Shown here: positions 6,540 to 26,410 of the stretch, piece after piece | Position numbering within the stretch: position 1 is the first letter of the stretch | How the letters are laid out: every line of letters starts with the position of its first letter | Origin: a virus | Strand: one strand, 5' to 3' | DNA length: 26,410 nt | IMG/VR virus record: IMGVR_UViG_3300042887_003401 | Span: 1 to 26,410 of that record | Program-made: the position numbers and the translations under genes | The notes under the pieces: generated by a model | Database searches by the model: none | What the model was told of the DNA's origin: nothing | Seen by the model: only the letters and a program-made list of their open reading frames with translations

Positions 6540-6545
6540 TAAATA
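6538..6545 (+). promoter_or_regulatory. possible late promoter variant AATAAATA
   Basis: One mismatch from TATAAATA, overlapping the gp5 stop and just before the needle gene. The form NATAAATA has been described for late promoters of T4-like cyanophages. The predicted +1 would fall on the ATG at 6551. The same 8-mer occurs inside the gp48-type gene at 2250-2257, so chance is a real alternative. Confidence 0.3.
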
Positions 6546-6550
6546 CAATT

Positions 6551-11634: not shown

Positions 11635-11639
11635 ATCTT

Positions 11640-13595
11640 ATGTTATTAAGTATTGCAGACGGCCGCCCACGAAATCTTGAAAGTGTACGTACACAATCAT
11701 TGTTTCCTGACAATATACAATCTGGTGCAGCAAATATCATTGCATTTATTCAAGAGTATTATAACTACATCAATACTCATGGATTGCCTTCGGCTGAAAT
11801 CGGCAGCATAATTACAGATAAAGATATTGATGTTGTAAGCAATAACTATCTTGATAGCATAGGCAATCTTATTGCAAACAATATACCCAACAGTACTTCT
11901 TTAGATAAAGTCTCATTGTATAAAATTATTGTAAAGTATTACAATACGCGCGGTAGTGAAGATAGTATAACTGCATTCTTTAAGATATTCTTAAATGAAA
12001 CCGTTTCAATCTTTTATCCTAAAGAATACCTGTTTACACCTTCAAGCGGTAAGATCAATTGGGATCCATATGATGTGCCACCATTAGAATTGACGGCGGC
12101 TCCAGTCAATGGAGTAGCTGACACCATTACTATCAATAACAGTGGCTTTGAAAATCTAATAATTGCCGACAGTAACGATTCGCTATTAACATTAAATGAT
12201 ACCACAGTAATAACATTAGACCCAGTCCTTACTAGTGAAGGTGTTGTTATAAACTTTCCAACACTAACGTATGCTGGGTTTTATAATGGACGACTTGCAT
12301 ACACCAGTACTGGCACACTAACGAATTTATTACAGCAACCGTACGCGTTATATTATGATGAGCAATACGCGGCATGGATATTGCGTGGAGGTGTTGGTGC
12401 AACCGCTGGCTATTGGTATAGCACGCAAATCACTGGTGCCAATCTACTAGCGCCTCCCACAAATCAAGGAGCTGTTTGGGCTCCCAAGTTATCGTCAACA
12501 GTAGGTGTTCCATTTTTAAATTTTGTTGATGGAGATGCTGCAGCTACACAACCAACAAATGGCAATCTTTATGCACGAACAGGAACCTTTCCAAATCGCA
12601 CTGTTTACAAATGTGTTGATGACGGCAGTTTACCTGGGCATAGTATAATTTGGCAATTGCAAAGCGGTCCAGAATATGTATATGAAGATCATAAAGGATT
12701 TGCTTCAGACTCTTATAAGATTCAGGATAGCAACTATTGGCAAAACTATTCATATGACATACAATCCAACAGCGATGCAACTGTATGGCGTAATGCATTT
12801 TTAAAATTTGTTCATCCAGCTGGTTTAAAACTATTTACTTCGCTACTATTGGAAATACAAAGTCTTAATGTTTGGGATTCGTTTATTTCATACCAATTGC
12901 CAAACCCACAAGATCGTTATAGTTGGTTGGGCGCTTTAAATCCAACAGATACATATCAACGTCATACACCAAAATACCAACCGGGCTGGTTGTCGATTAG
13001 TGATCTTGAATACATCTTTACTGTATTATTCGCTGAAGGCAGTATAGCATTATCGCGTGAAGTAATCATGATCTTTCAACTCATTATGTCTTCGGAATAT
13101 AGTGAAAGACAGCTAGTTAGCCAAGAGTATGATCTTAATGGAATAAAGTTTAGAGACCCATCATGTTTGGGCGATGGCTTTTTGGGTAGTGACAGAACAA
13201 TTTCTTCAATGATCAATTCAGGTCTTGCAACAGTTATAGTTTCTTCTGTTATTGGAAGTGGAGCTGCAGGGCCCGTTGCAAGCGTTACCATTCTTAATGC
13301 AGGTGTTGGATATATTGTTGGTACTGGTAAAGTTACAACTGGTGGATCTGGAAGTAATTTCGCATTAAACATAACTGCGGTTGATAACAATGGAGGAATT
13401 ACTTCTATATCAACACCATTGAATACTTTAGGTTTTAATTATAAAGTTGGCGACGTTCTTACAATTACCAATGGAGCATTTAATTATCTACATTCTTATG
13501 CTTATAAGATGTTGAATGTATCTTCCATTGTAAGAAGCGGCTCTGGTAGTGCAACCACACAAACTGAGTTAATAGCCAACTATCCACTCGTATAA
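11640..13595 (+). CDS. baseplate wedge/structural protein in gp7 position
   Basis: 651 residues. The first 150 residues match a conserved phage baseplate-associated family: 'SLFPDNIQSGAANIIAFIQEYYNYINTHG', 'TDKDIDVVSNNYLDSIGNLIANNIP', 'LYKIIVKYYNTRGSEDSITAFFKIFLNETVSIFYPKEYLF'. The middle (about 150-480) is beta-rich and includes 'WQLQSGPEYVYEDHKGFASD' and a helical 'WRNAFLKFVHPAGLKLFTSLLLEIQS'. Near the C-terminus (about 545-615) is a beta module with 'VTILNAGVGYIVGTGKV', shared in style with the next two genes. It lies exactly between gp6 and gp8, where T4 has gp7 (1032 residues), so it is the best gp7 equivalent here; no convincing sequence match to T4 gp7 is visible. It starts 5 nt after gp6; its stop overlaps a late promoter. 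Confidence 0.65.
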   Translation: MLLSIADGRPRNLESVRTQSLFPDNIQSGAANIIAFIQEYYNYINTHGLPSAEIGSIITDKDIDVVSNNYLDSIGNLIANNIPNSTSLDKVSLYKIIVKYYNTRGSEDSITAFFKIFLNETVSIFYPKEYLFTPSSGKINWDPYDVPPLELTAAPVNGVADTITINNSGFENLIIADSNDSLLTLNDTTVITLDPVLTSEGVVINFPTLTYAGFYNGRLAYTSTGTLTNLLQQPYALYYDEQYAAWILRGGVGATAGYWYSTQITGANLLAPPTNQGAVWAPKLSSTVGVPFLNFVDGDAAATQPTNGNLYARTGTFPNRTVYKCVDDGSLPGHSIIWQLQSGPEYVYEDHKGFASDSYKIQDSNYWQNYSYDIQSNSDATVWRNAFLKFVHPAGLKLFTSLLLEIQSLNVWDSFISYQLPNPQDRYSWLGALNPTDTYQRHTPKYQPGWLSISDLEYIFTVLFAEGSIALSREVIMIFQLIMSSEYSERQLVSQEYDLNGIKFRDPSCLGDGFLGSDRTISSMINSGLATVIVSSVIGSGAAGPVASVTILNAGVGYIVGTGKVTTGGSGSNFALNITAVDNNGGITSISTPLNTLGFNYKVGDVLTITNGAFNYLHSYAYKMLNVSSIVRSGSGSATTQTELIANYPLV

Positions 13596-13598
13596 ATA
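13591..13598 (+). promoter_or_regulatory. T4-type late promoter before gp8
   Basis: A perfect TATAAATA overlapping the stop codon of the upstream gene (TAA at 13593-13595). The predicted +1 is near 13604, giving a leader of about 14 nt to the gp8 ATG at 13618. The leader is A/T only apart from one C and has no Shine-Dalgarno sequence. Confidence 0.8.
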
Positions 13599-13617
13599 GA
13601 TTCAAATAATATAAAAT

Positions 13618-15009
13618 ATGTCAGCAATTATTACAGACAACTTTCGCAGAAATAGTGCAAAATTATTTTTAAACGATATAGCCGGAGTCACCAATAACTA
13701 TTACTTGGGAATTGGCAAATCTGACAAATGGCCTAATGCAGGTGCTGTAACAGAAGATGCTTCTGGTTATAACGTTGCTGCTCCAGTTGGATCATTTAGC
13801 GATGCGTTAGAAGTGTTGAATAATGTTGCCACATTTAGCAAACTTGGAGCTAGCAATACAACACTAGTAATTCCAAACGTACCATATGCTAGCGGTAACA
13901 GATATAAAGCATATAATAGTTATGACAGCGGTTGCTTTTATGCAACTGGAAACCTGTTGCCATGTTATGCAACAACGCCAACTGGTATGTATCTTTGCTT
14001 AGCTAACAATTCCGGAGGTCTTACCGCCAGCCCACCATCCGATACATCTACATATGCTCCAGCCCAAGGTGGTGATAATTATGTTTGGATTTTGGTGCAA
14101 CCTGTAAGTCAGCTTGGAACGGCATTCATAACTGATCAATTTATTGAGGTAAGTCAGACGCCATTGACTAGTACTCCGTTGGCAAACAGTACAGCTTACG
14201 GCGGACTATGCAGCCCAGTGTTTCACGTGGTGAATGGCGGATCTGGATATACTGGAACGGCTCCAGTAGTAACATTACGAGGAAGCGATGCCGTCGGAAC
14301 CACAACATATACTCAAACGTTGACAGCTACAGTTGTAGGCGGAGTTATTACTGGAGTTATACACAGCCTCACTTTAGCTAACTGGCCAAAAGGATTGCAG
14401 GTTGCATCTGTAGAAGTTACTCATGCTACAGGCACTGGCGCAATTGTTGTTCCGGTCATTGCACCACGTTTAGGATATGGTCATATCCCAGCTGCTGTTA
14501 TGCCATCTTGGTATGCTGGTGTATCTGTTGATTTGCCTGATGGTATCAGCTCAGATAACTTTTATACTCCATATCGTCAAGTTTCGATTGTTCGCAATCC
14601 GAACACAACGGCTACAACTGCAAATGCATTGCGATCACTTACTTTACCAACTGGTCATAGTGTTCCTTCTATTACTGACGCTAATGCTTTGATAACTGAT
14701 GCCAGTGGAGTACCATTTGCAGTTGCTGATGCAGTTGTTGGAAATACTTTATATTTCCACCAAAATTACACTTCAGGCTTTAAAGAACTAGCTGCAAGCA
14801 CTACTTTCCGTTTATCAACCACAGGATCTACCAATTATACATACACCGCGGTTAATGCTTCAGAATGTACATCAAACTTTAATGGCATTACTGGTGGAGA
14901 TGGTATATTTGCACGTACCGTTGGAGAAGTTGTATTTGTTGAGAATCGCAAAAAAATTACACGTAGTGCTGGTCAAACTGAAAAAATCAAAATAATCATT
15001 CAATTCTAA
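13618..15009 (+). CDS. 8: gp8 baseplate wedge protein
   Basis: 463 residues (T4 gp8 is 334). The N-terminus 'ITDNFRRNSAKLFLNDIAGVTNNYYLGIGKSDKWPN' is the characteristic gp8 start, with 'YLGIGKSD.W' equivalent to the T4 'F.TFGRSEPW' region. Other family marks are 'SFSDALEVLNNVATFSKLGA', 'VPRxxY'-like 'NVPYASGNRYKAYNS', 'CLANNSGGLTASPP' and 'GDNYVWILVQPVS'. Residues about 199-283 hold an extra beta module (VVNGGSGYTGTAPVVTLRG and GGVITGVI), which likely explains the added length. The C-terminal half resembles the repeated second domain (PTGHSVPSIT, then 'GEVVFVENRKKITRSAGQTEKIKIIIQF'). gp8 forms a dimer on the wedge contacting gp7, gp6 and gp10. The stop overlaps the next ATG as TAATG. Confidence 0.87.
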   Translation: MSAIITDNFRRNSAKLFLNDIAGVTNNYYLGIGKSDKWPNAGAVTEDASGYNVAAPVGSFSDALEVLNNVATFSKLGASNTTLVIPNVPYASGNRYKAYNSYDSGCFYATGNLLPCYATTPTGMYLCLANNSGGLTASPPSDTSTYAPAQGGDNYVWILVQPVSQLGTAFITDQFIEVSQTPLTSTPLANSTAYGGLCSPVFHVVNGGSGYTGTAPVVTLRGSDAVGTTTYTQTLTATVVGGVITGVIHSLTLANWPKGLQVASVEVTHATGTGAIVVPVIAPRLGYGHIPAAVMPSWYAGVSVDLPDGISSDNFYTPYRQVSIVRNPNTTATTANALRSLTLPTGHSVPSITDANALITDASGVPFAVADAVVGNTLYFHQNYTSGFKELAASTTFRLSTTGSTNYTYTAVNASECTSNFNGITGGDGIFARTVGEVVFVENRKKITRSAGQTEKIKIIIQF

Positions 15010-18000
15010 TGCCAATTACAACAGACAACAATATATACCGCGATGATTTTACGGCTTCGAATGTAGATGCAAAAAATTATTTGCGTATCTTGTTTAAAGC
15101 AGGATACAGTGTTCAGGTTCGTGAATTGAATCAGATGCAGAGCATACTGCAAAACCAAATCAATAAATTTGGTCTGAGCGTATGGAAGGATGGAGCTGCA
15201 GTTATTGGTGGCAGTTGTACATATGACCAAACCATTCAATACATTGATGCTACGGTTACTGGTACTAATGTATCAACCGCAATCCTTGCATCAACTAACA
15301 TACTCCCTTTTAATGGATTAGCTGCAAGTATATTGGGTGTAAAAAGTTTAGGCGTAAGCGGTGCATACCGCATATTCTTAAGATACAATAATAGCGCAAC
15401 CGGTGGTGTAGTTGCAGCATACTCTATCAGCAATGCTTTAAGCACAAACAATGCATTGAATGTTGCTGTGACAGCAACCGGTTATGCAGCTGGCATATTT
15501 CTTTCAAAAGGAGTATTCTTCACAAAAGGAAGTTTTGTTGCAACTGATGCACAAAGTGTTTTCTTTACGCTAGATACTAAAGATGCTAGTGTAAACGGTA
15601 AAGCTTACCTTTACGTAGCTGAAACATTTGTTGACTATACAACTGATGCATCATTAACAGACAATGCAAATGGTACTCCCAATTATAATGCTCCTGGCGC
15701 TGATCGTTATGCTGTAGATTTGACATTAACCTTTGAAGCGGACGGGAGTGCAGCCAACACATCAGATAAAATTTCTCTGTTGACAGTTGTTAATAGCGTA
15801 CCTGCGGTAGCAATGCGCGATCGTTATAGCGATCTAGACCGTCAACTTGCACAACGCACATATGAAGAAAGCGGAAGTTATACACTCAATCCGTTTAGGG
15901 CTCACATTCGCGAATTGTATAACAATGGCAGCAACTATGGCCGTTATGTTAGCTCTGAATTGGATAAAGCTGGTTATAGTATTAGTGCAGGCGACTTGCC
16001 AGCTAGCATAGCTGACGCACAAACGCGCTACAGCTTGGGTATTGATCCGTCGGTTGCCTATGTGTATGGCTACCGCGTTGCACCACTCGACAAGAACGAA
16101 TTGAATGCTCCCAAGGCACGCACACTTTCACCATTGACACCAGCCAATACATATGCGAATATTGGAAACTATGTGATTGGATCTTTTGAGTCTGGTTCAT
16201 ACTTGCCCATCATCACAGAGATCAGTAGTACATACAGAGTTGGACTAACTAAAACATATGATGGATCACTCACAAGCACTGTCACGTCAATTTCGCTACC
16301 CAACACAACTGGCATAACAGTTGGTATGACTATGTATGGATCAACTTCTGGTCCGATGACAACCGGAGTTGTAATTACATCAGTTGGTGCAAATACTATT
16401 GGATTTACATCAACGGCTATTACAATTACTAACAATGAAGTATTAAATTTTGTAGCCGGAACAACCAAAATTAAAGCCGTTGAAGTTGAAGGCGCATCAA
16501 CATATCGCTTGTATCTTTATGACACCATCATAACTGCAACTGGAGGATTTAATTTGACTGATATTACACGAGTATGGAATACTGGTAGCACAGCTGTTAA
16601 ATTTACGGTTGCAACTGGAGGAGCACTCGCCTTTGCTAGCAATGATACTGCAGTATTCAAATTGCCGTTTGATGCAGTAAGTAGGCTGACTAATATCCAA
16701 TACAACATCCTGCATACTAGCAGCCCGGTACCAAGCCCCAATACTAGTGTTACCCAAATTACAGTGGATTGCAGTGGTGGTCGTGTATTTTCGGATACTA
16801 GCCCAGGCGGTATAATCTTTTTTGTTAATGGAGTTAGAAAAACAGATTTTACTACAAGCGAGCAGCCTGGACAAGTTTTAACATTAAGTTGGACTAGCGG
16901 GGCGTTGACCGGAGCAAACTATACTGTTATTGCACCTGTTACTGTTGGTATTCTTTCTGAGGGTGGCGCAGGCACAATAACAAAGACACTCACAGCAGAT
17001 AATCAAACAATGACTGCAACTAACGCGCAAACGGTATTTACTCTTTCTAAAGCAGAAGTATTTGCATTAACAAAAATAACTATTGGCACTGCCCCCGTAT
17101 TTGTCCCACCTCTTACTGACTGGGTTATCAGTGATGATGGGCAACGTGATAATTACTTTACAAACGTTAAGGTTAAATATATTGGTAAGAAAAACTTAGA
17201 CGGACTAAGTATAAAATTCGAGTATACCTATTTCCTGCGGTCGTCATATACCACCGTGTGTGCTGCGGTCAACAGCTATTTACCAAATTCAACAAATCAA
17301 ACACTAGGGTTAACATATTCAACCATACCATCATACAAAGGAGTACGCCTTGCTGATTGTATTGATTTCCGCCCCGTGATACTTACAGGTAGCACTGGTG
17401 TTGTAGATGTATTAAATCCTTATAGTAGCATAAGTGCGGCTGCTCAATTTTATTTGCCTAGAATTGACAAAGTGTGTGTCGATTATAATGGAAACTTTGA
17501 AATTACACAAGGGAATGCGGAATTGAATCCGCGTGTTCCTGAGACACCGCCCAAGTCGATGGCTCTATATACATTAGCGGTTCCAGCATATACACACAAT
17601 GCTACTGATATTGTTTCAACATATATTGATAACCGCCGCTATACTATGCGAGACATTGGCGGATTGGAAAGCCGCATTAAGAATATCGAATACTACACTA
17701 CACTATCATTGCTTGAAAAATCAGCAAATGATAAGCCAATTTTTGATAGCACTGGCAGCCGCTTTAAGAATGGTATATTGGTAGATTCATTCTACAATAA
17801 CAATACTGCAAACATTGGCAGTGAAGCTTACGCGGCCTCAATTGACATTACAAAAGGTATACTATACCCACAGTATTCTTCTCGTCGCTTTGACTTCAAA
17901 AAAGTTGACAACACACTATCTTCAATTAAGATTAACAGCAATACTGCTACTTTAGCATATTCCGAAACTCCACTAATCTCTCAATCATATGCTACTGAAT

Positions 18001-20318
18001 ATGAAAGTGTAAATCCATATGATCTTGCATCCTTTGTTGGTAATGTTACACTAACACCCGGTTCCGACGAATGGAAGGAAGTAACAAATACTACGGTGTA
18101 TGCCGCGCTCAATACTGCAAATTATGATACAGTAAAAGATACTGCAGTGTTGGGTACAATATGGAATGAATGGACTACAAATTGGACCGGTTCTACAGTC
18201 ACACGGAGTGCTCCGCATGTGGTAAGTGCTCCTGACGGTGTGATGCGTCAAGCTGTTATAACTACTGAAACAGGTAGACAATCAAGAGTTGGATTGCAAA
18301 CACAATTAAACTTTACCGATATTACACAAAATAATGGTGAACGAGTAGTTGATGTTACTTTTATTCCATTTATTCGTTCGCGTAAAGTTTATTTTAGCGC
18401 AACTGGGCTTAAGCCAAATACAAAGGTATATCCATTCTTTGACGGCATTGATATAAGTGCATACTCAATGCAATTGGATAGCATCGTTGATTATAAAAAT
18501 AGTGCTGAAGTAAAAACTTATAACGGTATCAGTCCAGCCAATACAGCGCTTTCAACAATTGGTATTGTCACTTCAGCGCTGATAACAAATGTTGCTGGTG
18601 AAATTAAAGGAGTGTTTCTTATTCCCAACAATGAAGTTTATAAGTTTAGGACTGGTTCACGCTCATTCCGTTTAGCTGATAGTTCGCGTAACCTACCTAG
18701 CGAAATCACGACATATGCAGATTCAAATTATGCTGCAAATGGATTAACTCAAACGAACGAAACACTAATAACAAGTACTCGTATTCCTCAATTATCTCAA
18801 ACAAGAGTTGACCAATCGGGAGCTGTTAGTAGAGTTACTAAAGTACAGTATGTAGATCCACTTGCGCAAAGTTTCATGATTGGTGACATTGAAACTGGTG
18901 CTTTTGTTACAAGCCTTGACCTGTATTTCCAAAGCACCAGCGCTACTTTGCCAGTCACCGTTGAAATTGTCACAGTTGAAAATGGTACGCCTACACAAAA
19001 AGTAGTACCATTCTCACAGGTATCGCTCAATCCTTATACAATTGACGGAAGCGGCGCATATACAACTACACGGGTTGTTCAAATCAGTCAAAATGGTAGC
19101 GCAGCTACACGATTCACGTTTAGCGATCCTGTGTATCTAAAAGCTGGAGCTGAATATGCAATTGTTGTAAAATCAAATGATCCTGCATACCGCATATATG
19201 TTGCGCGCGTCGGTGGAACTGACCTTGCTACATCTCAAAAGATTACAAAGAATGTATATGCTGGTGTTATGTTTATGAGTCAAAATGCTAGTACATGGAC
19301 TCCAGATCAAACACGAGACTTTAAGTTTGTGCTTAATCGCGCAGCGTTTGTTGGTTCAGGTTCACTGCAATTTAAACCGACATTCTCTACTGGTGTTGAA
19401 AGTGTAACAATTAGCGCGGGTGGTAGCGGCTTTACTCAAGCGGGAGCAAGCATGACTTTTGCTGCACCGTCAACTGTAAAACCGGGTGATATAGCTGCAA
19501 CAGGTGTGCCAACAGTTGATATATTAACAGGATCAATTGTCAGCGTAAGAGTGACCAACGCTGGCAACGGTTATGCATATAATGAAAGTCCGACGCTAAC
19601 ATTTGCTAACACAGGTACAACACCCGTGGCTCCAACGGCAACAGCTAACCTACTGAATGTTCCAGTTACTACATTCAATTTAGCTCAAGAGAATATAACT
19701 GTTGAAGGCACTGGTATAACCAACACACTTCGCCTTGATAATTTAACGCCAATCATAATTAGTCCTAATGAAAATTACGACTTAAAAACTGCTTTTTCGG
19801 TGGATCTTTCAACTGCACCAAACACAAGTATGACAACGGTGCTGTCAACTAGAAGTGATTATGTAAGTCCAGTGATTGATTTGGACCGTGTATCATTGCT
19901 TACTGTTAAGAATGAAATCAATGCATTGGCTGACAACGATACAACCGAAACGACAGCCGACAAAGGAGCTGCAACTTCTCGTTACGTAACAAAAACAGTA
20001 AATCTTAACAATCCAGCTGATCAGTTAAATATTTACATCAATGCAAATCGCCCAACCGCAGCTGCAAAAATTACACTATATGCAAAATTAGCATATGATG
20101 GCGCAAGTGCAACTCCGACAAGCTGGGTTAAGATATCACCAGTGAATGCAATTCCTGTGTCGAGCAACTCTGAAGAATACGCTGAAGCAGAATATACACT
20201 GTCAAGTCCAGCAAATGATTTTATTAGCTTTACCATTAAAATTGTGTTTTCATCGGACAACCTGTATGATGTTCCATCTATACGCGATTTCCGCGCTATT
20301 GCTACAACTGGTGTATGA
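15009..20318 (+). CDS. giant DUF4815-type virion structural protein (gp9/gp10 position)
   Basis: 1769 residues, the longest gene here. The N-terminus 'NIYRDDFTASNVDAKNYLRILFKAGYSVQVRELNQMQSILQNQINKFGLSVWKDGAAVIGG' and 'LAQRTYEESGSYTLNPFRAHIREL..NGSNYG' with 'GIDPSVAYVYGYRV' mark the DUF4815 family of aquatic T4-like structural proteins. A region about 1282-1455 (DPLAQSFMIGDIETGAFVTS onward, with 'FSDPVYLKAGAEYAIVVKS') is the repeat-type domain often found in their fibre-linked proteins. Residues about 1460-1553 carry two beta modules (TISAGGSGFTQAG; VRVTNAGNGYAYNESPTLTF). The C-terminus 'RDFRAIATT' is typical of the family. Placed after gp8, it corresponds to the T4 gp9/gp10 slot and probably links the wedge to fibres. 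The ATG shares its A with the gp8 stop. Confidence 0.78.
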   Translation: MPITTDNNIYRDDFTASNVDAKNYLRILFKAGYSVQVRELNQMQSILQNQINKFGLSVWKDGAAVIGGSCTYDQTIQYIDATVTGTNVSTAILASTNILPFNGLAASILGVKSLGVSGAYRIFLRYNNSATGGVVAAYSISNALSTNNALNVAVTATGYAAGIFLSKGVFFTKGSFVATDAQSVFFTLDTKDASVNGKAYLYVAETFVDYTTDASLTDNANGTPNYNAPGADRYAVDLTLTFEADGSAANTSDKISLLTVVNSVPAVAMRDRYSDLDRQLAQRTYEESGSYTLNPFRAHIRELYNNGSNYGRYVSSELDKAGYSISAGDLPASIADAQTRYSLGIDPSVAYVYGYRVAPLDKNELNAPKARTLSPLTPANTYANIGNYVIGSFESGSYLPIITEISSTYRVGLTKTYDGSLTSTVTSISLPNTTGITVGMTMYGSTSGPMTTGVVITSVGANTIGFTSTAITITNNEVLNFVAGTTKIKAVEVEGASTYRLYLYDTIITATGGFNLTDITRVWNTGSTAVKFTVATGGALAFASNDTAVFKLPFDAVSRLTNIQYNILHTSSPVPSPNTSVTQITVDCSGGRVFSDTSPGGIIFFVNGVRKTDFTTSEQPGQVLTLSWTSGALTGANYTVIAPVTVGILSEGGAGTITKTLTADNQTMTATNAQTVFTLSKAEVFALTKITIGTAPVFVPPLTDWVISDDGQRDNYFTNVKVKYIGKKNLDGLSIKFEYTYFLRSSYTTVCAAVNSYLPNSTNQTLGLTYSTIPSYKGVRLADCIDFRPVILTGSTGVVDVLNPYSSISAAAQFYLPRIDKVCVDYNGNFEITQGNAELNPRVPETPPKSMALYTLAVPAYTHNATDIVSTYIDNRRYTMRDIGGLESRIKNIEYYTTLSLLEKSANDKPIFDSTGSRFKNGILVDSFYNNNTANIGSEAYAASIDITKGILYPQYSSRRFDFKKVDNTLSSIKINSNTATLAYSETPLISQSYATEYESVNPYDLASFVGNVTLTPGSDEWKEVTNTTVYAALNTANYDTVKDTAVLGTIWNEWTTNWTGSTVTRSAPHVVSAPDGVMRQAVITTETGRQSRVGLQTQLNFTDITQNNGERVVDVTFIPFIRSRKVYFSATGLKPNTKVYPFFDGIDISAYSMQLDSIVDYKNSAEVKTYNGISPANTALSTIGIVTSALITNVAGEIKGVFLIPNNEVYKFRTGSRSFRLADSSRNLPSEITTYADSNYAANGLTQTNETLITSTRIPQLSQTRVDQSGAVSRVTKVQYVDPLAQSFMIGDIETGAFVTSLDLYFQSTSATLPVTVEIVTVENGTPTQKVVPFSQVSLNPYTIDGSGAYTTTRVVQISQNGSAATRFTFSDPVYLKAGAEYAIVVKSNDPAYRIYVARVGGTDLATSQKITKNVYAGVMFMSQNASTWTPDQTRDFKFVLNRAAFVGSGSLQFKPTFSTGVESVTISAGGSGFTQAGASMTFAAPSTVKPGDIAATGVPTVDILTGSIVSVRVTNAGNGYAYNESPTLTFANTGTTPVAPTATANLLNVPVTTFNLAQENITVEGTGITNTLRLDNLTPIIISPNENYDLKTAFSVDLSTAPNTSMTTVLSTRSDYVSPVIDLDRVSLLTVKNEINALADNDTTETTADKGAATSRYVTKTVNLNNPADQLNIYINANRPTAAAKITLYAKLAYDGASATPTSWVKISPVNAIPVSSNSEEYAEAEYTLSSPANDFISFTIKIVFSSDNLYDVPSIRDFRAIATTGV

Positions 20319-20542
20319 AGATAAAAGTAAAAGATAGTACGGCATTAGAGCGCGATGTAGGTAGCAATGCTATCATCAATGTTGATGGCTCTGCATATGC
20401 GGCTGTGCTTGCTAAGCGTAAAGCAACTGCTGAAGCACGAATTAAGGTAAATGCTCTTGAAGAAGAAGTATCACATCTTAAAGAATCACAACGCCAATTG
20501 CAAGAAACTGTAAATAAACTAATAAGTCTCCTAGATAAATAA
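20315..20542 (+). CDS. small coiled-coil virion-associated protein
   Basis: 75 residues. The first half has 'KDSTALERDVGSNAIINVDGSAYAAVLAKRKA', a pattern (RD..S.AIIN.D...Y) seen in small conserved proteins beside fibre genes of T4-like phages. The second half (about 43-75) is a predictable coiled coil, with heptad-spaced Leu/Val in 'ALEEEVSHLKESQRQLQETV' and 'NKLISLLDK'. It probably oligomerises with, or caps, a fibre or baseplate component; no enzymatic motif is present. It starts within the stop of the giant protein (ATGA overlap at 20315-20318), so it is likely translated by coupling. It ends 5 nt before the fibre gene. Confidence 0.65.
   Translation: MKIKVKDSTALERDVGSNAIINVDGSAYAAVLAKRKATAEARIKVNALEEEVSHLKESQRQLQETVNKLISLLDK
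20534..20541 (+). promoter_or_regulatory. possible late promoter variant GATAAATA
   Basis: One mismatch from TATAAATA, overlapping the end of the coiled-coil gene and 6 nt before the fibre ATG at 20548. It fits the NATAAATA form described in T4-like cyanophages. The predicted +1 falls 1 nt before the start codon. Confidence 0.35.
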
Positions 20543-20547
20543 CAACA

Positions 20548-21915
20548 ATGGAATCTTCTGAATACAATCTATTTTCAAGCATCTCAACCAACGGTGTTAC
20601 TGTTGCCGATACATTCAACACGTGGCGCAAAAGCACAAATGGTATTATTCAAAAACTTACCGTTGAAGCTGGCAGTCCTACATGGGATACCTCTGGAAAA
20701 TTAGTCATTGGTAGTATTGTAGCTGACACTGGTAGTGCTATAGTTGATGTAGGAGTAGCAAGCACTGGAAGCCGTGCCGCAATCTTAAATCTAGGGAGTG
20801 CTTCAAATGTTAATAGCGTTGTAATTAATCGTGCTAGCGGAACAAACGGAAGCTTTAGCGTTACAAATAATGGAACGGGATTGTTTAGCTTAAGCCAAGA
20901 CGGTGCGGGTGCTATAAGCATATTGACAAGTGCAACCGAAAGAGTGCGAATATTGTCTGGCGGAAATGTTGGCATAGGCACCGCTACACCTGATTCATTG
21001 CTACATGTAAATGGTGGTAATTTTAAAGTTAGCGGAACAATCACAAGCGGAGCAATTAGTAGCAGCGGCACCATTGGTGGAACTAATATCACTGCATCAG
21101 GATTTCTTAATGCCGCTACACTTGGAATAGGAAACAGCAACACGGCATTTACTGTTAGTGCTCTTGGTGCTATTGTAGGAACGGCACTAAATGCTGGTGC
21201 TGGAGCAATTTCTACAACAGGTGCATTAAATGCTGGCACACTTAATGTTGGCACAGTACCGCAATTTACTGTTAGTGCTCTTGGTGCTATTGTAGGAACG
21301 GCACTAAATGCTGGTGCTGGAGCAATTGTTACAACCGGTGCAATATCAGGTGGTGGTTTAAAATCTACAAAAAATTCACAAACTGGATATGGTGATGCAG
21401 CTTTAATTAGTGAAAGTGCAAGCGGAGATGCTGGCATAACATTGCATTGTTTCGGAGCAAATGCGGTGTATCTCAAATGCGCACGAGACGCTATAAGCGG
21501 TTATGCAGCTGGCAGTTTACATATAATAACTCATGTTGGAACCACATCGTATGCTAATATTATAGTTAATCAACTTGATGCAAAAGGCGACATCGTTGCT
21601 TATAGTACATCCGACCGCAAGTATAAAGACAACATAGTAAACATTACAAATCCATTGGACAAAGTGTCTCGTATAAATGGTGTGTCCTTTGACTGGAATA
21701 ACCAACAGTCTGCATTCTCTGGTCATGACATTGGTGTAATTGCTCAAGAAGTTGAAGCTGTATTGCCTGAGATTGTAGCTACGCGCGAAGATGGAAGTAA
21801 GGCTGTTAAGTATGATAGGATTGTAGCACTTCTCATTGAATGCGTTAAAGAACTTAAGGTTAGCAACGAGCAGTTGCATGCTGAAGTAGACGCATTAAAA
21901 CTTCTTGTTAAATGA
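20548..21915 (+). CDS. tail fibre/spike protein with C-terminal S74 self-cleaving chaperone
   Basis: 455 residues. The N-terminal 'NLFSSISTNGVTVADTFNTWRKSTNGI' is an attachment-type region. Residues about 60-340 are repetitive beta-rich fibre shaft, including 'RVRILSGGNVGIGTATPDSLLHVNG', a motif common just before S74 domains, and a 39-residue in-frame repeat (FTVSALGAIVGTALNAGAGAI, twice). Residues 355-455 are a peptidase S74 intramolecular chaperone: 'SDRKYKDNIVNI', 'VSFDWNN', 'HDIGVIAQEVEAVLPEIV', 'KAVKYDRIVALLIECVKEL' and a terminal coiled coil. Ser355 and Lys360 match the cleavage dyad, so the chaperone should trimerise, fold the shaft and release itself by cutting before Ser355. It likely recognises the host. 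Start is 5 nt after the upstream stop. Confidence 0.87.
   Translation: MESSEYNLFSSISTNGVTVADTFNTWRKSTNGIIQKLTVEAGSPTWDTSGKLVIGSIVADTGSAIVDVGVASTGSRAAILNLGSASNVNSVVINRASGTNGSFSVTNNGTGLFSLSQDGAGAISILTSATERVRILSGGNVGIGTATPDSLLHVNGGNFKVSGTITSGAISSSGTIGGTNITASGFLNAATLGIGNSNTAFTVSALGAIVGTALNAGAGAISTTGALNAGTLNVGTVPQFTVSALGAIVGTALNAGAGAIVTTGAISGGGLKSTKNSQTGYGDAALISESASGDAGITLHCFGANAVYLKCARDAISGYAAGSLHIITHVGTTSYANIIVNQLDAKGDIVAYSTSDRKYKDNIVNITNPLDKVSRINGVSFDWNNQQSAFSGHDIGVIAQEVEAVLPEIVATREDGSKAVKYDRIVALLIECVKELKVSNEQLHAEVDALKLLVK
21147..21210 (+). repeat. 64-bp perfect direct repeat, copy 1
   Basis: Read by eye, 21147-21210 is identical to 21264-21327. The offset of 117 bp (39 codons) keeps the frame. 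It lies in the fibre shaft. Confidence 0.9.
21264..21327 (+). repeat. 64-bp perfect direct repeat, copy 2
   Basis: Second copy of the in-frame shaft repeat; similarity fades after the shared gcaatt at the right end (first copy continues tctac, second gttac). Confidence 0.9.
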
Positions 21916-21927
21916 TACCTTTAATAT

Positions 21928-22482
21928 ATGTCAAAACTTCAATCATCGGGTTTAATATCTTTAGGCAACCTTGCCGACGAATATATAGTATCAAAATCTA
22001 ATGTCAGCTTCAATGCATTTCATAAAGTAGCTCCTGGTACAAGCTTAGGACCAGTAAATGGTGTAGTTAAAAGTATAGCAAATAATGCTGCTGTTCCTGC
22101 AAGTGGGCAAATACGGTTAAGTAATTTTTATGGGTCTGGCTGGTATTACAAAAGAGTTTATTTTCTGTTAACATCCGCAACGGTATTAAGTTCAACCGCT
22201 GGTACATATAACAGTAACGGTACAATTAGAGTTTATGTTGATGGCTCAAGTTCTAATTATACCGTAAGCGTAACAGGCCGAGCTGGTCAAACATTATCTC
22301 AAAACGGATTTGACGGCTCAGTATACGCACAATTTGATGGATTGGCTGGAGATGTGGCATATACAATAACCGTAACAGATAATCTTTTCGGGACAACTTA
22401 TACCTTTACCGCAAACATTTCAAAAGGCGGCACTAGCACCGTAACTGGCTATGCCACAACAACATGGCATAATGTCGGATAA
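21928..22482 (+). CDS. small tail/adhesin-like structural protein
   Basis: 184 residues. The N-terminal 72 residues follow a pattern found at the start of many phage tail or fibre-tip proteins: 'LQSSGLISLGNLADEY...SNVSFNAF' and, later, 'VPASGQIRLSNFYGSGW' (general form SG.ISL..L, then SG.I.LS.FYG). The remaining 110 residues are a Ser/Thr/Gly-rich beta domain with 'GTIRVYVDGSSSNYTVSVTGRAG' and 'DVAYTITVTDNLFGTTYTFT', Ig-like in appearance. There is no signal peptide or membrane segment. Following directly on the fibre (12-nt gap), it could be a fibre-tip adhesin or baseplate decoration. It is the last gene with the base composition of the structural region. Function is inferred from pattern and position only. 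Confidence 0.6.
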   Translation: MSKLQSSGLISLGNLADEYIVSKSNVSFNAFHKVAPGTSLGPVNGVVKSIANNAAVPASGQIRLSNFYGSGWYYKRVYFLLTSATVLSSTAGTYNSNGTIRVYVDGSSSNYTVSVTGRAGQTLSQNGFDGSVYAQFDGLAGDVAYTITVTDNLFGTTYTFTANISKGGTSTVTGYATTTWHNVG

Positions 22483-22494
22483 ATTAAAAAGAGT

Positions 22495-23211
22495 ATGAAT
22501 ACACCATTTTTAGAAATTTTCAAAAAAGATATATGTAATGGGCCTGTGTGTATTACTTATAAAGAACGAGAAGATGTTGTATATACTAAGTTTTTTTACA
22601 AAGTAGAAGATGTAGATTTTTATGATACAACTAATGATGTTTTTCATCTTGTTTCACATATAGATAATAAAACAAAAACCATTAAAGGTTGTGATATTAT
22701 CAAGTTTGAATCGCTAAAAGAAGATGACACTTTTGATGTTAAAAAATATTTCTTAGATAAAGCAGAAAAAATAAAAGCAGATTATAAAGAAATATTAAAT
22801 TTTGATTATTCCGATTCATTTAATAATTTTAATGATTACTTTTTTAATGAAAACGTAAGTTTAAATGATCTTAAGATGGTGTGTATGCTTGGCTTACCAT
22901 CATTTGATAGTCTTGAAAGTGGCGGTGAAGATACCTTGATTAGAATAAAAGAAGTATGGAAAGCTCAAATTGAATTGCATAAAGTTGAAATTTTAAAATA
23001 TCTTAAAAGTGAAATTGATTTGCCTGATTCTTCATATGATGCAGATACAGTTAAAGAAATTATGAATTTGATCACAGAATTTAATCCTTCATCAACATTA
23101 AATTCTATAAAGTCCAAAGAAGAATTGTTTGAATATTGGCCTAGTATACTATTACCTGCGCCAGATTTTATAAATGAAATACATACATTATATGCAACAC
23201 GCAACATATAA
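22495..23211 (+). CDS. hypothetical protein, first gene of AT-rich cassette
   Basis: 238 residues, not recognised. The sequence is acidic and Lys/Asp/Asn-rich. The N-terminal half looks beta-rich ('GPVCITYKEREDVVYTKFFY', 'DVFHLVSHIDNKTKTIKGCD'), the rest mostly helical ('KAEKIKADYKEILNFDY', 'RIKEVWKAQIELHKVEILKYL'). No signal peptide, membrane helix or catalytic motif was found. Base composition falls sharply compared with the fibre genes (9 G/C of 60 at 22741-22800, hand-counted). The start has one of the few purine-rich leaders here (aaaaagag ending 3 nt before the ATG). It stands between the adhesin-like gene and the sialyltransferase-like gene, so it could belong to either the tail or the cassette. 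Confidence 0.7.
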   Translation: MNTPFLEIFKKDICNGPVCITYKEREDVVYTKFFYKVEDVDFYDTTNDVFHLVSHIDNKTKTIKGCDIIKFESLKEDDTFDVKKYFLDKAEKIKADYKEILNFDYSDSFNNFNDYFFNENVSLNDLKMVCMLGLPSFDSLESGGEDTLIRIKEVWKAQIELHKVEILKYLKSEIDLPDSSYDADTVKEIMNLITEFNPSSTLNSIKSKEELFEYWPSILLPAPDFINEIHTLYATRNI

Positions 23212-23237
23212 TGAAAATCTCATTTATTAATTTTCAT
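23211..23237 (+). other. small inverted repeat overlapping a start codon
   Basis: Arms atgaaaat (23211-23218) and attttcat (23230-23237) are perfectly complementary with an 11-base loop. The right arm covers the first two bases of the ATG at 23236. The stem is AT-rich and weak; a role in start-site masking is only a possibility. Confidence 0.35.
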
Positions 23238-23943
23238 GTTAAAAAAAATATGTATCATAGGTAATGGTGTAGGTTCTATTAGAAAAGAAAACGGAAAATT
23301 TGTTGATTCATGCGATGAAGTAGTAAGAATCAAAAATTTTGAAACACGAGGATTTGAAAAATATATTGGAAGTAAAACAACAATATATTCAAGTAAATGG
23401 TTTGCATGGTTTGATCGTAAGATTCGCAATAAGCCATTAAAATTTACTTTTTTAGATGAAGTTCATACATTAATGTTTATGTTTCCAAATGAATTCATTA
23501 AAGAAGATCCTAATAATAACTTTAATGCATACACTCTTTTATACAAACAGCTTCAGCTTAAAAATGAATTGCCTCCAATACCCAATAAAAATTGGAAAGG
23601 TCATATTGAATGTTTAAATATGTTTGGTGTTGAAAAAAAGAAAGCTATACACTTTTCTTTAAATGATGTTGAACAATTATGCATAAACATATTAAAAATA
23701 CATAATAAAAACTATGTTCGATCTTTAAAAAAAATTATAGAGCCAACGTGCGGGATACGCACTGTTTTTAAAATTTTACAAATCTATCCAGATGCAGAAA
23801 TATTTTTAACAGGATTTGATTGTTTTCAAAGCGGCTGGTATTGGGATCAAAGTCATAAAATCAAAGCTGTTCATTATTATTTAGACGAATTGCTTTATTT
23901 TGGCCAACTCAAAAAAATGGAAAATGTTACTTTTTTAGATTAA
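23236..23943 (+). CDS. sialyltransferase-like glycosyltransferase (GT29-type)
   Basis: 235 residues with all the landmarks of sialyltransferase-like (GT29) enzymes. The N-terminal 'CIIGNGVGSIRKENGKFVDS' with 'CDEVVRIKNFETRGFEKYIGSKTTIY' corresponds to sialylmotif L (GNG.S...G..ID..D.V.R.N......D.G.KT). 'EPTCGIRTVFKILQIYPDAE' plus 'IFLTGFDCF' (residues 169-197; GFD at 193-195) corresponds to motif S. 'HYYLDE' (His213-Glu218) gives the H-x4-E of motif VS. Known members transfer sialic acid from CMP-sugar to a glycan; bacterial and viral relatives may use other donors. No signal peptide or anchor is seen, so it should act in the cytoplasm of the infected cell. It is AT-rich; its stop overlaps the next ATG as TAATG, so the two are likely co-translated. 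Confidence 0.75.
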   Translation: MLKKICIIGNGVGSIRKENGKFVDSCDEVVRIKNFETRGFEKYIGSKTTIYSSKWFAWFDRKIRNKPLKFTFLDEVHTLMFMFPNEFIKEDPNNNFNAYTLLYKQLQLKNELPPIPNKNWKGHIECLNMFGVEKKKAIHFSLNDVEQLCINILKIHNKNYVRSLKKIIEPTCGIRTVFKILQIYPDAEIFLTGFDCFQSGWYWDQSHKIKAVHYYLDELLYFGQLKKMENVTFLD

Positions 23944-24893
23944 TGCTAAGTACTATTTTAAACAAAAGCATTGCATTTTTGTGTGATGAATCTCTACCAA
24001 ATTATTTAGATAACCCTCAAAGATATGACTACTTAAAAGGTAAGCATAGCGCAACCGGTTACTATTATTGGATATTAAAAAATTTTGGTTTTCATAATGT
24101 ATCGTTAGTATCAGCTGATGATTGTTTAGATCATTATGATGCTGTGGTATTTCATTATGATAATCATGATTGCATAGACATCAACAAAAAGTATAAGACG
24201 CTTCAAATCGTTACCGACCGCCCACAATTACCAGGAGTTGACTTGTATGCAGCATGCAATTTGTCTTCATTCAAACCCATTCTGAATCTAGACATAATAA
24301 AAAGCACTGGAATTGGTCTTAAACATGTTTTGTGTGGTCCGCTAACATACATACATTATCCAATGGCATTAAATTACACCAAATGTAAAGCAAGTTGGCC
24401 ACCCAAAGTTTTTCATTATACTGGAAGAAAGACCACACTTATAGATGAAATATACAGTGATTCCTTTGTAGATCACATGAAAAACAAAGGAGTGAATTTG
24501 CGATTTGATTTTGAAAATGATCATAACTCTGGAGATGAAGATGTTTATTTTTGTGTGCGCAAGAGAACTACTTATTTTTCATTGAAAAGCAAAGGTAATA
24601 ATGTAGATACAAAATTAGGTCAAAAGACAGCTAACCGATTGTATCAAGCATGGAAAATGGGTACGCCTCTCATTATAAATGGGAATAGCGCAATGGGTTC
24701 TATATACAAAAACGAAAACGACTTCCTATTAGCTGATAATGTAGAACAGTTTGAATATCAATGTTTAAGATTATTGCATCATAAAGAGTTGTTTGATGCT
24801 ATGATTGCTAATGGAAATATAAGAAAAGACGAACATACAAACAGTCAAATTGTAAAACAATTCATTGAAGCTTTTCAAATACTTTTTAAATGA
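23943..24893 (+). CDS. GT-B-like glycosyltransferase (probable)
   Basis: 316 residues. The C-terminal third has the nucleotide-sugar-binding style of GT-B enzymes: 'KTANRLYQAWKMGTPLIINGNSAMGSIYKNENDFLLADNVEQFEYQCLRLLHHKELFDAMIANG', where a Thr/Ala-helix, 'A..MGTP.I', an acidic/Phe segment and a following helix are arranged as in GT1/GT4-like proteins. The N-terminal half has short Rossmann-like strands ('SIAFLCDE', 'DAVVFHYDNHDC', 'TLQIVTDRP') and 'GYYYWILKNFGFHNVSLVS'. The motif 'VYFCVRKRTTYFSLKSKGNN' with 'DTKLGQKTANRL' recalls glycosyltransferases that read a short peptide or glycan acceptor. No donor or acceptor can be named. It overlaps the upstream gene by one base and is followed by a 20-nt gap. 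Confidence 0.6.
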   Translation: MLSTILNKSIAFLCDESLPNYLDNPQRYDYLKGKHSATGYYYWILKNFGFHNVSLVSADDCLDHYDAVVFHYDNHDCIDINKKYKTLQIVTDRPQLPGVDLYAACNLSSFKPILNLDIIKSTGIGLKHVLCGPLTYIHYPMALNYTKCKASWPPKVFHYTGRKTTLIDEIYSDSFVDHMKNKGVNLRFDFENDHNSGDEDVYFCVRKRTTYFSLKSKGNNVDTKLGQKTANRLYQAWKMGTPLIINGNSAMGSIYKNENDFLLADNVEQFEYQCLRLLHHKELFDAMIANGNIRKDEHTNSQIVKQFIEAFQILFK

Positions 24894-24913
24894 AACGGAA
24901 TATATAATATAAT

Positions 24914-25801
24914 ATGAATGGTGAGTATCACATCAATAAAAGAAATGAGCGATATTATGTTAACAGCTTAAAGGATAGTTTTTTATATAAACTGCAAGGA
25001 TTAACCACAATTGAGTTGAGCGTCACTGAGTTGTGTACACGCAAATGTTCATTTTGCCCTCGCGGTGATTCTACGGTTTACCCAAATCAAAAGCTATTCA
25101 TGAGCTCGGAAACCATTACAAACATTGCAAATAAATGTTTAGCTGAAGGCTTTGAAGGCGATTTTCATATCTCAGGTTTTGGTGAATCATTCACGCATCC
25201 AAAGTTTCTTGAATTGACTTCTACACTAAGAGACACATTACCAAACAATCATTTGGTATTGACAACCAATGGTGACTTTTTAAATGATAAAACAATCAAT
25301 GAAATAATCAAAAGAAACTTTAACAAGGTTATTGTTAGTTGTTACGACGGCGCTGAAAGAAAAAAACATTTTACATTGTTGTTTGAAAAGAATGGTTTTC
25401 ATAATTATGATATAAGAGAATTGTGGTTTAACCCAGAGGAAACTACTGAAGATCTTATGAATCGCAATAACTTTAACAATCGCTCAGGTTCAGTAAATGT
25501 TGATTCTCAAAAAGAAAATCTTAACATCAATTCTCCATGTTACTTGCCTTTTTACAAAGTTATTATTGATTGGAATGGAAATGCTTTATTGTGTTGTAAT
25601 GATTGGAAAAAAGCTCATAAAGGATTGGGTAATATCAATACTCATTCGTTAAGTGATATTTGGTATGGTGAAGAATTGGTTAAGGTCCGTGCACAATTAG
25701 CAAACGGCAAACGTGTTGGGCCGGCGTGCGCAAACTGTAATATCAAAGGAACCTTAATTGGGAAAGAAAGCGTAAATTTACTATCGGATAAAGAGTTATG
25801 A
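24914..25801 (+). CDS. radical SAM/SPASM-domain enzyme
   Basis: 295 residues. 'TELCTRKCSFCPRG' supplies the radical SAM CxxxCxxC cluster (Cys41, Cys45, Cys48). The following 'DFHISGFGESFTHPKF' is the GGE-type SAM-binding strand (here GFGES) and 'LVLTTNGDFLND' the usual barrel strand. The C-terminal part is SPASM-like: 'SPCYLPFYKVIIDWNGNALLCCNDW' (Cys209, Cys227, Cys228) and 'PACANCNIKG' (Cys272, Cys275), which would bind an auxiliary iron-sulfur cluster. Such enzymes modify peptides, sugars or alcohols by radical chemistry, often in ribosomal peptide or aminoglycoside pathways. Substrate is unknown; a carbohydrate is suggested by neighbours. A weak GGAA sits 13 nt before the ATG. The stop overlaps the next gene as ATGA. 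Confidence 0.85.
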   Translation: MNGEYHINKRNERYYVNSLKDSFLYKLQGLTTIELSVTELCTRKCSFCPRGDSTVYPNQKLFMSSETITNIANKCLAEGFEGDFHISGFGESFTHPKFLELTSTLRDTLPNNHLVLTTNGDFLNDKTINEIIKRNFNKVIVSCYDGAERKKHFTLLFEKNGFHNYDIRELWFNPEETTEDLMNRNNFNNRSGSVNVDSQKENLNINSPCYLPFYKVIIDWNGNALLCCNDWKKAHKGLGNINTHSLSDIWYGEELVKVRAQLANGKRVGPACANCNIKGTLIGKESVNLLSDKEL

Positions 25802-26410
25802 TAAACGCCCATGAATATAAATGTTTTGTTGTTCAACCAAATAGGTATTTTAAATCTCTTAAGGAACAAATTAATAATGATACTTTCTATGTACATGGAG
25901 GAGGTTGGAAATTAAAAGATGAATCTCAATACAATTCTTCAAATAATTTATGGCGGCTTCCTCCGTTTACATATAAACTTATTAAAAAAAATCAAACAAT
26001 AATTGGGGTTTTTCCTCCAGACAGATTTGATTATCTTAAAAATGTTAAAAAATATACAATAATTGAAAATCCCGTAGACCGGGTTTATCAATGTTTTTGG
26101 TATATGCAGCATCAAATTGGAAGTAAAAAACTCAATAAATGCGATAAAATATATGAAGAATATAATGGTGATTTAGATTCATTTATTGATATGTATATTA
26201 AAAATCCAGATAATGTAACTCTCACCGCCCATTGTAAAAATGTCATATATGAAACACAGTATGACGCATTAAATCAATTTAAGGATTTGTCTCAATTCCA
26301 ATTTGTTGGTACTGTTGAAAAGTTAAAAAAATCAATTGACATAGTCAATGCTGGTTTTAATTTAAACTTAATATATGATGAAAAAATGAAAGCAAAAAAA
26401 TTGGATTGTT
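25798..26410 (+). CDS. sulfotransferase-like protein, truncated by window end
   Basis: At least 204 residues, running off the window without a stop. It starts at the ATG overlapping the previous TGA (ATGA at 25798-25801), with a purine-rich aaagag a few bases upstream. 'YTIIENPVDRVYQCFWYMQHQIGS' resembles the 3'-phosphate-binding motif of sulfotransferases (RDP.eR..S.yyy, here ENPVDR), and 'FQFVGTVEKLKKSIDIVNAGF' resembles the usual 'vGl.Erl..sl..l' that follows. The expected N-terminal PAPS loop (PKTGGTS type) is not seen; 'FYVHGGGWKL' is the only Gly-rich segment there. Members transfer sulfate from PAPS to glycans or small molecules. Here the family link is moderate and activity uncertain. 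It is strongly AT-rich like its cassette neighbours. Confidence 0.55.
   Translation, partial: MINAHEYKCFVVQPNRYFKSLKEQINNDTFYVHGGGWKLKDESQYNSSNNLWRLPPFTYKLIKKNQTIIGVFPPDRFDYLKNVKKYTIIENPVDRVYQCFWYMQHQIGSKKLNKCDKIYEEYNGDLDSFIDMYIKNPDNVTLTAHCKNVIYETQYDALNQFKDLSQFQFVGTVEKLKKSIDIVNAGFNLNLIYDEKMKAKKLDC

Follow-up and report, generated by a model that had tools for sequence, protein, structure and literature searches.

The viral record IMGVR_UViG_3300042887_003401 of IMG/VR (class linear), whose entire 26,410 bases make up the stretch analysed here (the window), comes from a T4-like aquatic phage and carries a five-gene linked accessory cassette behind its tail fibre genes (22483–26410). The cassette encodes a GT29 (sialyltransferase-like) glycosyltransferase, a GT-B-like glycosyltransferase and a radical S-adenosylmethionine (rSAM) enzyme resembling BtrN, and, judged from these sequences, very likely tailors and transfers sugars. 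We tentatively propose a soluble, late-expressed module, swappable gene by gene, for the synthesis and attachment of an unusual sugar; its likeliest acceptor would be the fibre of the phage. The gene families, their synteny, the conservation of their motifs, purifying selection on the core enzymes and the layout of late promoters are supported directly.

Composition and gene content of the cassette

A preliminary description of this DNA had reported that base composition drops behind the adhesin-like gene, based on hand counts of 23 G/C in 60 bases at 20041–20100 and 9 in 60 at 22741–22800. Both counts were exact, and the drop was confirmed at 22483, where G+C falls from 38.6% (1–22482) to 29.3% (22483–26410). 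The lowest G+C among stretches of the same size (3928 bases, step 50) in 1–22482 was 36.0%; thus, the drop is not due to chance. The five closely packed open reading frames (ORFs) described behind it were also found, with overlaps TAATG (23941–23945) and ATGA (25798–25801). In addition, three transferase-like genes and one for a radical SAM enzyme had been read among these; the GT29, GT-B-like and radical SAM/SPASM assignments all exceeded Pfam cut-offs, whereas the sulfotransferase label was unsupported. The preliminary interpretation of the cassette is partly supported. The GT-B-like gene (23943–24893, + strand) encodes a protein of the Glyco_trans_1_2 family (PF13524, E = 2.6e-7; 31.2 bits, cut-off 25) that is 99% identical in the related contig G002.

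A GT29 enzyme with sialylmotifs

The GT29 gene (23236–23943, + strand) encodes a protein that matched PF00777 at 7.9e-8 (32.5 bits, cut-off 23), and its profile matched the sialyltransferase structure 2wml at 2.9e-5. The protein has sialylmotifs L, S and VS. Motif L was aligned to 2wml by the profile, motif S lay in a second, non-significant stretch and is visible in the family alignments, and motif VS (His-x4-Glu), found in 8 of the 14 copies aligned, reads HYYLDE. The motif III region is WYWD in the window protein versus HYWE in 2wml.

GT29 genes were found in seven viral lineages, with one to four copies each. No relative of GT29, GT-B or ORF E was detected by tblastn among 50,697 phage records, a search that a remote relative could escape, and Pfam GT29 was absent from 14 control genomes. 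Furthermore, Pfam GT29 was rare in the bacteria sampled: the family search found it in 2 of 385 genomes from the class of Bradyrhizobium nitroreducens and in 6 of 369 from the class of Paraglaciecola algarum (5 above cut-off), the named genome being included in both counts, in 5 of 298 from the phylum of a Sulfurovum metagenome-assembled genome (MAG) and in 2 of 296 from the phylum of a Flavobacteriaceae MAG (none above cut-off). No rSAM match was found in the pieces of 3.2 and 3.4 kb that surround the GT29 genes of P. algarum and G310. A separate pattern scan of genomes for GT29 gave 32 stretches, none of which was confirmed. Our literature search, which covered titles and the beginnings of abstracts and took in the longer lists in part, found no report of GT29 in a phage.

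A BtrN-like radical SAM enzyme

The rSAM gene (24914–25801, + strand) encodes a protein above the Pfam cut-offs for both Radical_SAM (39.3 bits, cut-off 29.5) and SPASM (50.1 bits, cut-off 21.5). A profile of seven phage sequences matched the BtrN structures 4m7t and 4m7s at approximately 1e-29, with the next solved structure at 1.6e-6; as a single sequence, the window protein matched BtrN at approximately 3e-15. Its cysteines C41, C45 and C48 form a CX3CX2C motif, and the spacings of its auxiliary cysteines C209, C227, C272 and C275 (18/45/3, counted in the alignment) are identical to those of BtrN. All seven cluster cysteines are invariant among 12 aligned rSAM proteins. In addition, R190, present in at least 90% of the 12 rows, aligns with the Arg of an NRxG segment, Arg152 of BtrN. 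The aminotransferase partner of BtrN is BtrS.

BtrN is a twitch enzyme whose one auxiliary cluster is coordinated by four cysteines; it catalyses the two-electron oxidation of the alcohol of 2-deoxy-scyllo-inosamine (PMC9012708). Because four auxiliary cysteines are found as in BtrN, we prefer the term twitch to SPASM for the window enzyme, and on this pattern we reject a full SPASM enzyme. From this likeness, the window rSAM probably oxidises a sugar alcohol.

The butirosin pathway in which BtrN acts also includes an aminotransferase (PMC9012708), which would suit a cassette producing an aminocyclitol-like small molecule, whether secreted or kept inside the cell. We consider such a role unlikely, indeed very improbable, since GT29 enzymes are known to act on glycans (PMC5811610; PMC11288761), the site is a fibre island and some bacterial rSAM homologues lie beside surface-sugar genes. 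Even less credit is due to the idea that the rSAM enzymes modify a fibre peptide, in the manner of ribosomally synthesized and post-translationally modified peptides, with the transferases as unrelated passengers. Many weak NCBIfam matches to the rSAM protein do include peptide maturases, but all are far below cut-off, the closest structure is that of BtrN, which acts on a cyclitol and is a twitch enzyme with four cysteines (PMC9012708), and the rSAM gene is repeatedly linked to GT29, GT-B and aminotransferase genes.

Using tblastn, we found rSAM matches in 8 of the 50,697 phage records. At locus L014, a Pfam radical SAM core (8191–8871) is followed by a short ORF with a WPCC segment (8855–9211) that has no Pfam match, an arrangement suggestive of one enzyme divided between two genes; similar arrangements were seen by eye in L010, L012 and L017. 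At L011, which belongs to a different viral group from the window, DAHP-synthetase-family and cytidylyltransferase genes (Pfam; 15268–16783, – strand) lie 5–6 kb from an rSAM gene whose product is 40% identical to the window rSAM. By eye, this pair resembles a synthase of 3-deoxy-D-manno-octulosonate (Kdo) 8-phosphate and a synthetase of cytidine monophosphate (CMP)-Kdo, and comparable ORFs are visible, again by eye, in L008, L012 and L017.

Linkage of the enzymes in other phages and in bacteria

We made an inventory of linkage in ten stretches at E 1e-5, using models of which several derive from a single sequence; G003 represents G003/G004 and G006 represents G006/G007, which have matching genes. 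Several contigs were fetched by rSAM or GT-B queries; thus, the following fractions depend in part on how the contigs were retrieved. The GT-B family occurred in five lineages (G001, G002, G003, G006 and G008), all with an rSAM match, four with GT29 and three with an aminotransferase. Among the seven GT29 lineages, six had an rSAM match (not L034), five a close one (E below 1e-60) and four an aminotransferase. In G008 and L033 the rSAM matches were weak (1e-7 to 1e-20); we make no claim of BtrN likeness for them. The order aminotransferase–GT29–GT-B–rSAM was found in G002 and G003 (with a 72-residue ORF before the rSAM gene in G003), and G006 has the variant order aminotransferase–GT29–GT29–rSAM–GT-B. 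The preliminary description had named rare co-occurrence of its four families in related phages as a ground for refutation, and this does not apply to three of them: GT29, GT-B and radical SAM genes do recur jointly. The sulfotransferase-like ORF E was found only in the window/G001 lineage apart from one weak match in L033 (E 0.0093), and a pyridoxal phosphate (PLP) aminotransferase, absent from the window, belongs to the recurring set.

The phage aminotransferases belong to Pfam class I/II, and the G002 copy was nearest to NCBIfam hisC, below cut-off. All seven aligned sequences, from four phage cassettes, two bacteria and cyanophage S-SCSM2R, retain the Ser-Lys of the PLP site. In bacteria, aminotransferase, rSAM and GT29 genes are consecutive in B. 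nitroreducens, whose GT29 is the only one of its genome; among 195 Bradyrhizobium genomes sampled, none of the other 194 matched the rSAM model at better than 3e-11. An aminotransferase gene also adjoins the rSAM gene in Sulfurovum and in S-SCSM2R. Other partners of the bacterial rSAM genes were scanned among those picked by eye from 128 neighbour ORFs. These partners, at 6 of 18 loci, point mostly to surface-sugar settings or to Gfo/Idh oxidoreductases. L039 and L046 have a KdsD-type SIS-CBS protein, L040 a UDP-N-acetylglucosamine 2-epimerase and a Gfo/Idh oxidoreductase, L038 and L043 a Gfo/Idh protein, and L042 flagellin together with a carbamoyltransferase.

Gene turnover and selection

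Contig G001, whose shared genes encode proteins 100% identical to those of the window, extends the cassette as far as the next fibre-assembly gene. Past the window it encodes, in order, the complete ORF E (231 residues), an Asn-synthase-like protein, a second GT29 and a GT8-like protein, followed by a tail-fibre-assembly-like protein, one resembling tail fibres and a DUF285 protein; no match to a neck gene was found before the contig end, the published cluster of this kind ending at gp14. The Asn-synthase-like protein exceeded the Pfam cut-offs for GATase_7 and Asn_synthase, and the GT8-like protein was below cut-off in Pfam and strongly matched a PHROG of unknown function. Glutamine-dependent Asn synthases have an N-terminal Cys2 and an SxGxDS ATP loop; the G001 enzyme keeps the loop (SSGHDS). 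Two proteins of L007, a locus of the same phage type as the window, were noted in passing: an Asn-synthase-like protein without Cys2 (11589–12878), which might link a carboxylate to an amine different from ammonia, and a 783-residue DUF285 protein behind the tail fibre (16127–18478). The G008 relative of this Asn-synthase-like protein retains MC at the start.

At the DNA level, G002 is 89% identical to window/G001 through the end of ORF A, 87% across GT29–GT-B–rSAM, and 94% identical to G001 across the genes for the second GT29, the GT8-like protein and fibre assembly. In the gaps separating these blocks, G002, a close relative, has an aminotransferase gene missing in the window, and carries another GT29 where G001 has ORF E and the Asn-synthase-like gene; thus, cassette genes have been gained or lost at gene borders. 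Between the window lineage and G002, nonsynonymous divergence (pN) was below synonymous divergence (pS) in eight of nine genes, far below it in the first and second GT29 genes (GT29a and GT29b), GT-B and rSAM (pN/pS 0.176/0.583 for GT29a, 0.004/0.173 for GT-B and 0.062/0.374 for rSAM).

Turnover at gene borders, seen on comparing window/G001 with G002, the AT-rich composition and the equal pN and pS of the GT8-like gene (both 0.015) would also fit a hypervariable island that gathers short-lived foreign genes without joint function. We regard this as improbable, because pN is well under pS for GT29a, GT-B and rSAM and the same combination is found in diverged phages and, in part, in one bacterium.

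Synonymous divergence from L004 was uneven along the region. The GT-B pS (0.173) is near that of the VrlC and fibre genes (0.18); therefore, its 99% protein identity reflects strong constraint. The pS of 0.34 for ORF A, 0.37 for rSAM and 0.58 for GT29a looks as if these genes had been exchanged with other lineages.

ORF A and ORF E

ORF A (238 residues; 22495–23211, + strand) has phmmer homologues in four other lineages and no match in Pfam, PHROGs or NCBIfam. Its alignment shows a conserved helical C-terminal domain ending in [YF]WPxxL[LF]PxPD. The AlphaFold model had a mean predicted local distance difference test score (pLDDT) of 55.8, was confident solely in the C-terminal half, and matched nothing at E ≤ 0.001 in the viral structure library. 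In G001 and G002 a single gene separates ORF A from the fibre gene, and in G003 ORF A directly follows an S74-domain gene; a fibre chaperone would be a guess from this position.

ORF E (25798 to beyond 26409, + strand, truncated by the record end) had been called sulfotransferase-like, a weak likeness seen by eye. This label is unsupported: there was no match in Pfam, PHROGs or NCBIfam, nor did the complete 231-residue protein of G001 match Pfam at 0.05. Its segment ENPVDRVYQ lacks the first R and last S of the 3′-phosphate motif of sulfotransferases (RxPxxRxxS), and the single-sequence AlphaFold model was poor (pLDDT 39). The viral contig L033, which also carries a GT29 and a carbamoyltransferase gene along with three rSAM matches, has two tandem ORFs (2705–4052) that are weakly ORF E-like and contain an RxPYTRxQS segment. 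Neither had a Pfam match or a significant solved structure. A sulfotransferase is no more than a possible reading of ORF E.

Late promoters and neighbouring genes

In the window, the T4-type late promoter octamer TATAAATA occurs at chance frequency (5 copies against 4.25 expected). Across the window, G001 beyond the window and G002, 10 of 14 copies lie within 25 bases upstream of an ORF start, compared to 1.2% of positions, although the placement p-value is too small given that the window and G002 share some homologous sites; one of the four remaining copies has a gap of 14 bases if a later ATG is used. The final exact copy before the cassette (13591–13598, + strand) lies 20 bases 5′ of a gp8-like gene. 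The preliminary description had seen no exact octamer in the cassette, and none was found in 13599–26410 on either strand. In both the window and G002 one copy precedes the gp8-like gene; the next copy, in G001 and G002, comes just upstream of the fibre-assembly gene that follows the cassette. This placement suggests that the cassette is co-expressed with the fibre, and the simplest reading would be late read-through from 13591 together with VrlC and the fibre. Sigma-70 promoters and terminators were rejected as candidates, the consensus scan of the window being at chance level.

The VrlC homologue (1769 residues; 15009–20318, + strand; phmmer, Pfam DUF4815) matches VrlC of HTVC008M and Mosig at 1.3e-164 and 1.2e-160, and a Melnitz protein annotated as hypothetical at 4.1e-150. 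Behind it lies the candidate acceptor, a tail fibre protein with an S74 intramolecular chaperone domain (20548–21915, + strand; Pfam Peptidase_S74, 7e-16; PHROGs tail fibre families), followed by the final gene of normal composition (21928–22482, + strand), which encodes a 184-residue protein that is 95% identical in G002 and has no match in Pfam or PHROGs. The gp6 homologue of the window is closest to gp6 of Methylophilales and Pelagibacter myophages (approximately 33–35% identity). Elsewhere in the window, gp5 is divided between two overlapping ORFs (5535–7333), the first with a CHAP domain after the gp5 OB domain, and a 658-residue protein with cadherin-like beta-sandwich domains and no PHROGs match (7335–9311) lies between gp5 and gp25.

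Predicted chemistry and acceptor

For the individual reactions, the donor sugar and the acceptor, we infer the following scheme. The BtrN-like enzyme would oxidise a hydroxyl of a sugar or sugar-phosphate to a ketone, which the HisC-like PLP aminotransferase (found in four of the five T4-like lineages having GT29) could convert to an amine; where present, the Asn-synthase-like enzyme may convert a carboxylate into an amide. GT29 would transfer a CMP-activated ulosonic-type sugar, either host CMP-Kdo or a modified relative. A plant GT29, RCKT1, shows evidence of CMP-Kdo transferase activity (PMC11288761), and by this analogy host CMP-Kdo would be a reasonable donor. The GT-B and GT8-like enzymes would attach further residues. 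The phage's own fibre, from the same late transcript, would be the likeliest acceptor, and swapping of cassette genes would alter the coat of the receptor-binding apparatus.

The same chemistry could act on the host, with soluble enzymes altering cytoplasmic precursors of the lipopolysaccharide (LPS) core or O-chain; competing phages would then fail to recognise the infected cell, or progeny would not stick to debris. We regard this as quite possible, if short of probable. In its favour, CMP-Kdo should be available in a Gram-negative host. It is also the published interpretation of the glycosyltransferases in this island, which are read as host O-chain modifiers with GT8 as the commonest family (PMC7029224). 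Bacterial GT29 enzymes, described from Alpha-, Gamma- and Epsilonproteobacteria including marine Gram-negatives, have also been linked to LPS (PMC5811610). A late co-transcribed layout, on the other hand, would act after most superinfection, and no transmembrane stretch was found in ten cassette proteins (hydropathy; top 19-residue mean 1.21), unlike O-antigen conversion cassettes. Glycosylation of the fibre or of the host surface is possible, and as acceptor we slightly favour the phage fibre over the host surface.

Several observations weigh against the proposal of a fibre-directed module. The fibre is a predicted acceptor, and such islands have been interpreted as changing the host O-chain (PMC7029224). 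At 11 viral loci the rSAM protein is 39–41% identical to that of the window, and no GT29, GT-B or aminotransferase was found at the 9 of these that were inspected (L013 and L015 left out; some stretches short). The aminotransferase model matched nearby at only 2 of 18 bacterial rSAM loci and the GT29 model at 1 of 18; therefore, most rSAM homologues have other partners. The window lineage has no aminotransferase in its known part, and the G001 Asn-synthase-like enzyme begins with MSSF, without the Cys2 of glutamine amidotransferases. Six of the 14 aligned GT29 copies lack a complete VS motif, and in the second GT29 of the window lineage neither the His nor the Glu of VS is present. Finally, a late octamer precedes an ORF within the cassette in G005 and another lies inside the rSAM gene in G006, and read-through from 13591 is itself inferred, other promoters having been scanned by sigma-70 consensus only.

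A more general version of the fibre proposal, that aquatic T4-like phages as a class have their own sugar-tailoring line that coats fibres with a modified Kdo-like sugar and is diversified by single-gene swaps, seems rather unlikely to us at present; such a line would comprise radical dehydrogenation, transamination and CMP-ulosonate transfer by GT29. A GT29 combined with a BtrN-like dehydrogenase and an aminotransferase would give concrete and testable chemistry for a gene mix, published yet unexplained, in the host recognition islands of T4-like phages from aquatic habitats. Should the fibre prove to be the acceptor, these phages would alter host binding via sugar chemistry besides fibre sequence.

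Comparison with known systems

Like the plant enzyme RCKT1 and the animal sialyltransferases (CAZy GT29), the window GT29 is above the Pfam cut-off and has motifs L, S and VS; unlike them, it is short and soluble, and the segment aligned with motif III starts with W instead of H. The window rSAM shares with BtrN the CX3CX2C motif, the four auxiliary cysteines and their spacing, and most cassettes of its relatives include an aminotransferase; it differs in that the single-sequence match is only approximately 3e-15 and that the phage aminotransferases are of Pfam class I/II. The radical SAM ('BtrN protein') genes of Campylobacter Firehammervirus match the window rSAM across 90% of its length, but at 27–28% identity, and adjoin an amidinotransferase and unknown genes. 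In cyanophage S-SCSM2R (approximately 27–40 kb), a histidinol-phosphate-type aminotransferase lies beside a SPASM-annotated gene, as in relatives of the window, and the pair precedes the long tail fibre distal gene, with an ASNS gene after it. However, this stretch has no GT29 or GT-B match, its ASNS fails the AsnS model at 1e-5, and its rSAM is 27% identical.

The preliminary description knew of no described system with this gene set. This holds for the enzymes and their proposed chemistry, which we did not meet in the literature listings searched (the phrase 'tail fiber glycosylation' with bacteriophage returned no papers), but not for the site, since this kind of island is already known. 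The 'host recognition cluster' of pelagimyophages is a large variable region between VrlC, its upstream border, and the neck gene gp14, and holds tail fibres and glycosyltransferases, with radical SAM cassettes added in one genome pair (PMC7029224). The window cassette likewise lies behind VrlC and tail fibres, contains glycosyltransferase and radical SAM genes, and is hypervariable. No ORF of the Mosig stretch, including its MoaA-annotated genes, matched the window gene models at E 1e-3. Unlike the published cluster, the window has GT29 and a BtrN-like enzyme; the terms sialyl, sulfotransferase and asparagine synth do not occur in the main text of PMC7029224. Taken together, what the present analysis adds to the published island is the BtrN likeness of the rSAM enzyme, the presence of GT29 in seven viral lineages, and a recurrent set of GT29, GT-B, BtrN-like and aminotransferase genes.

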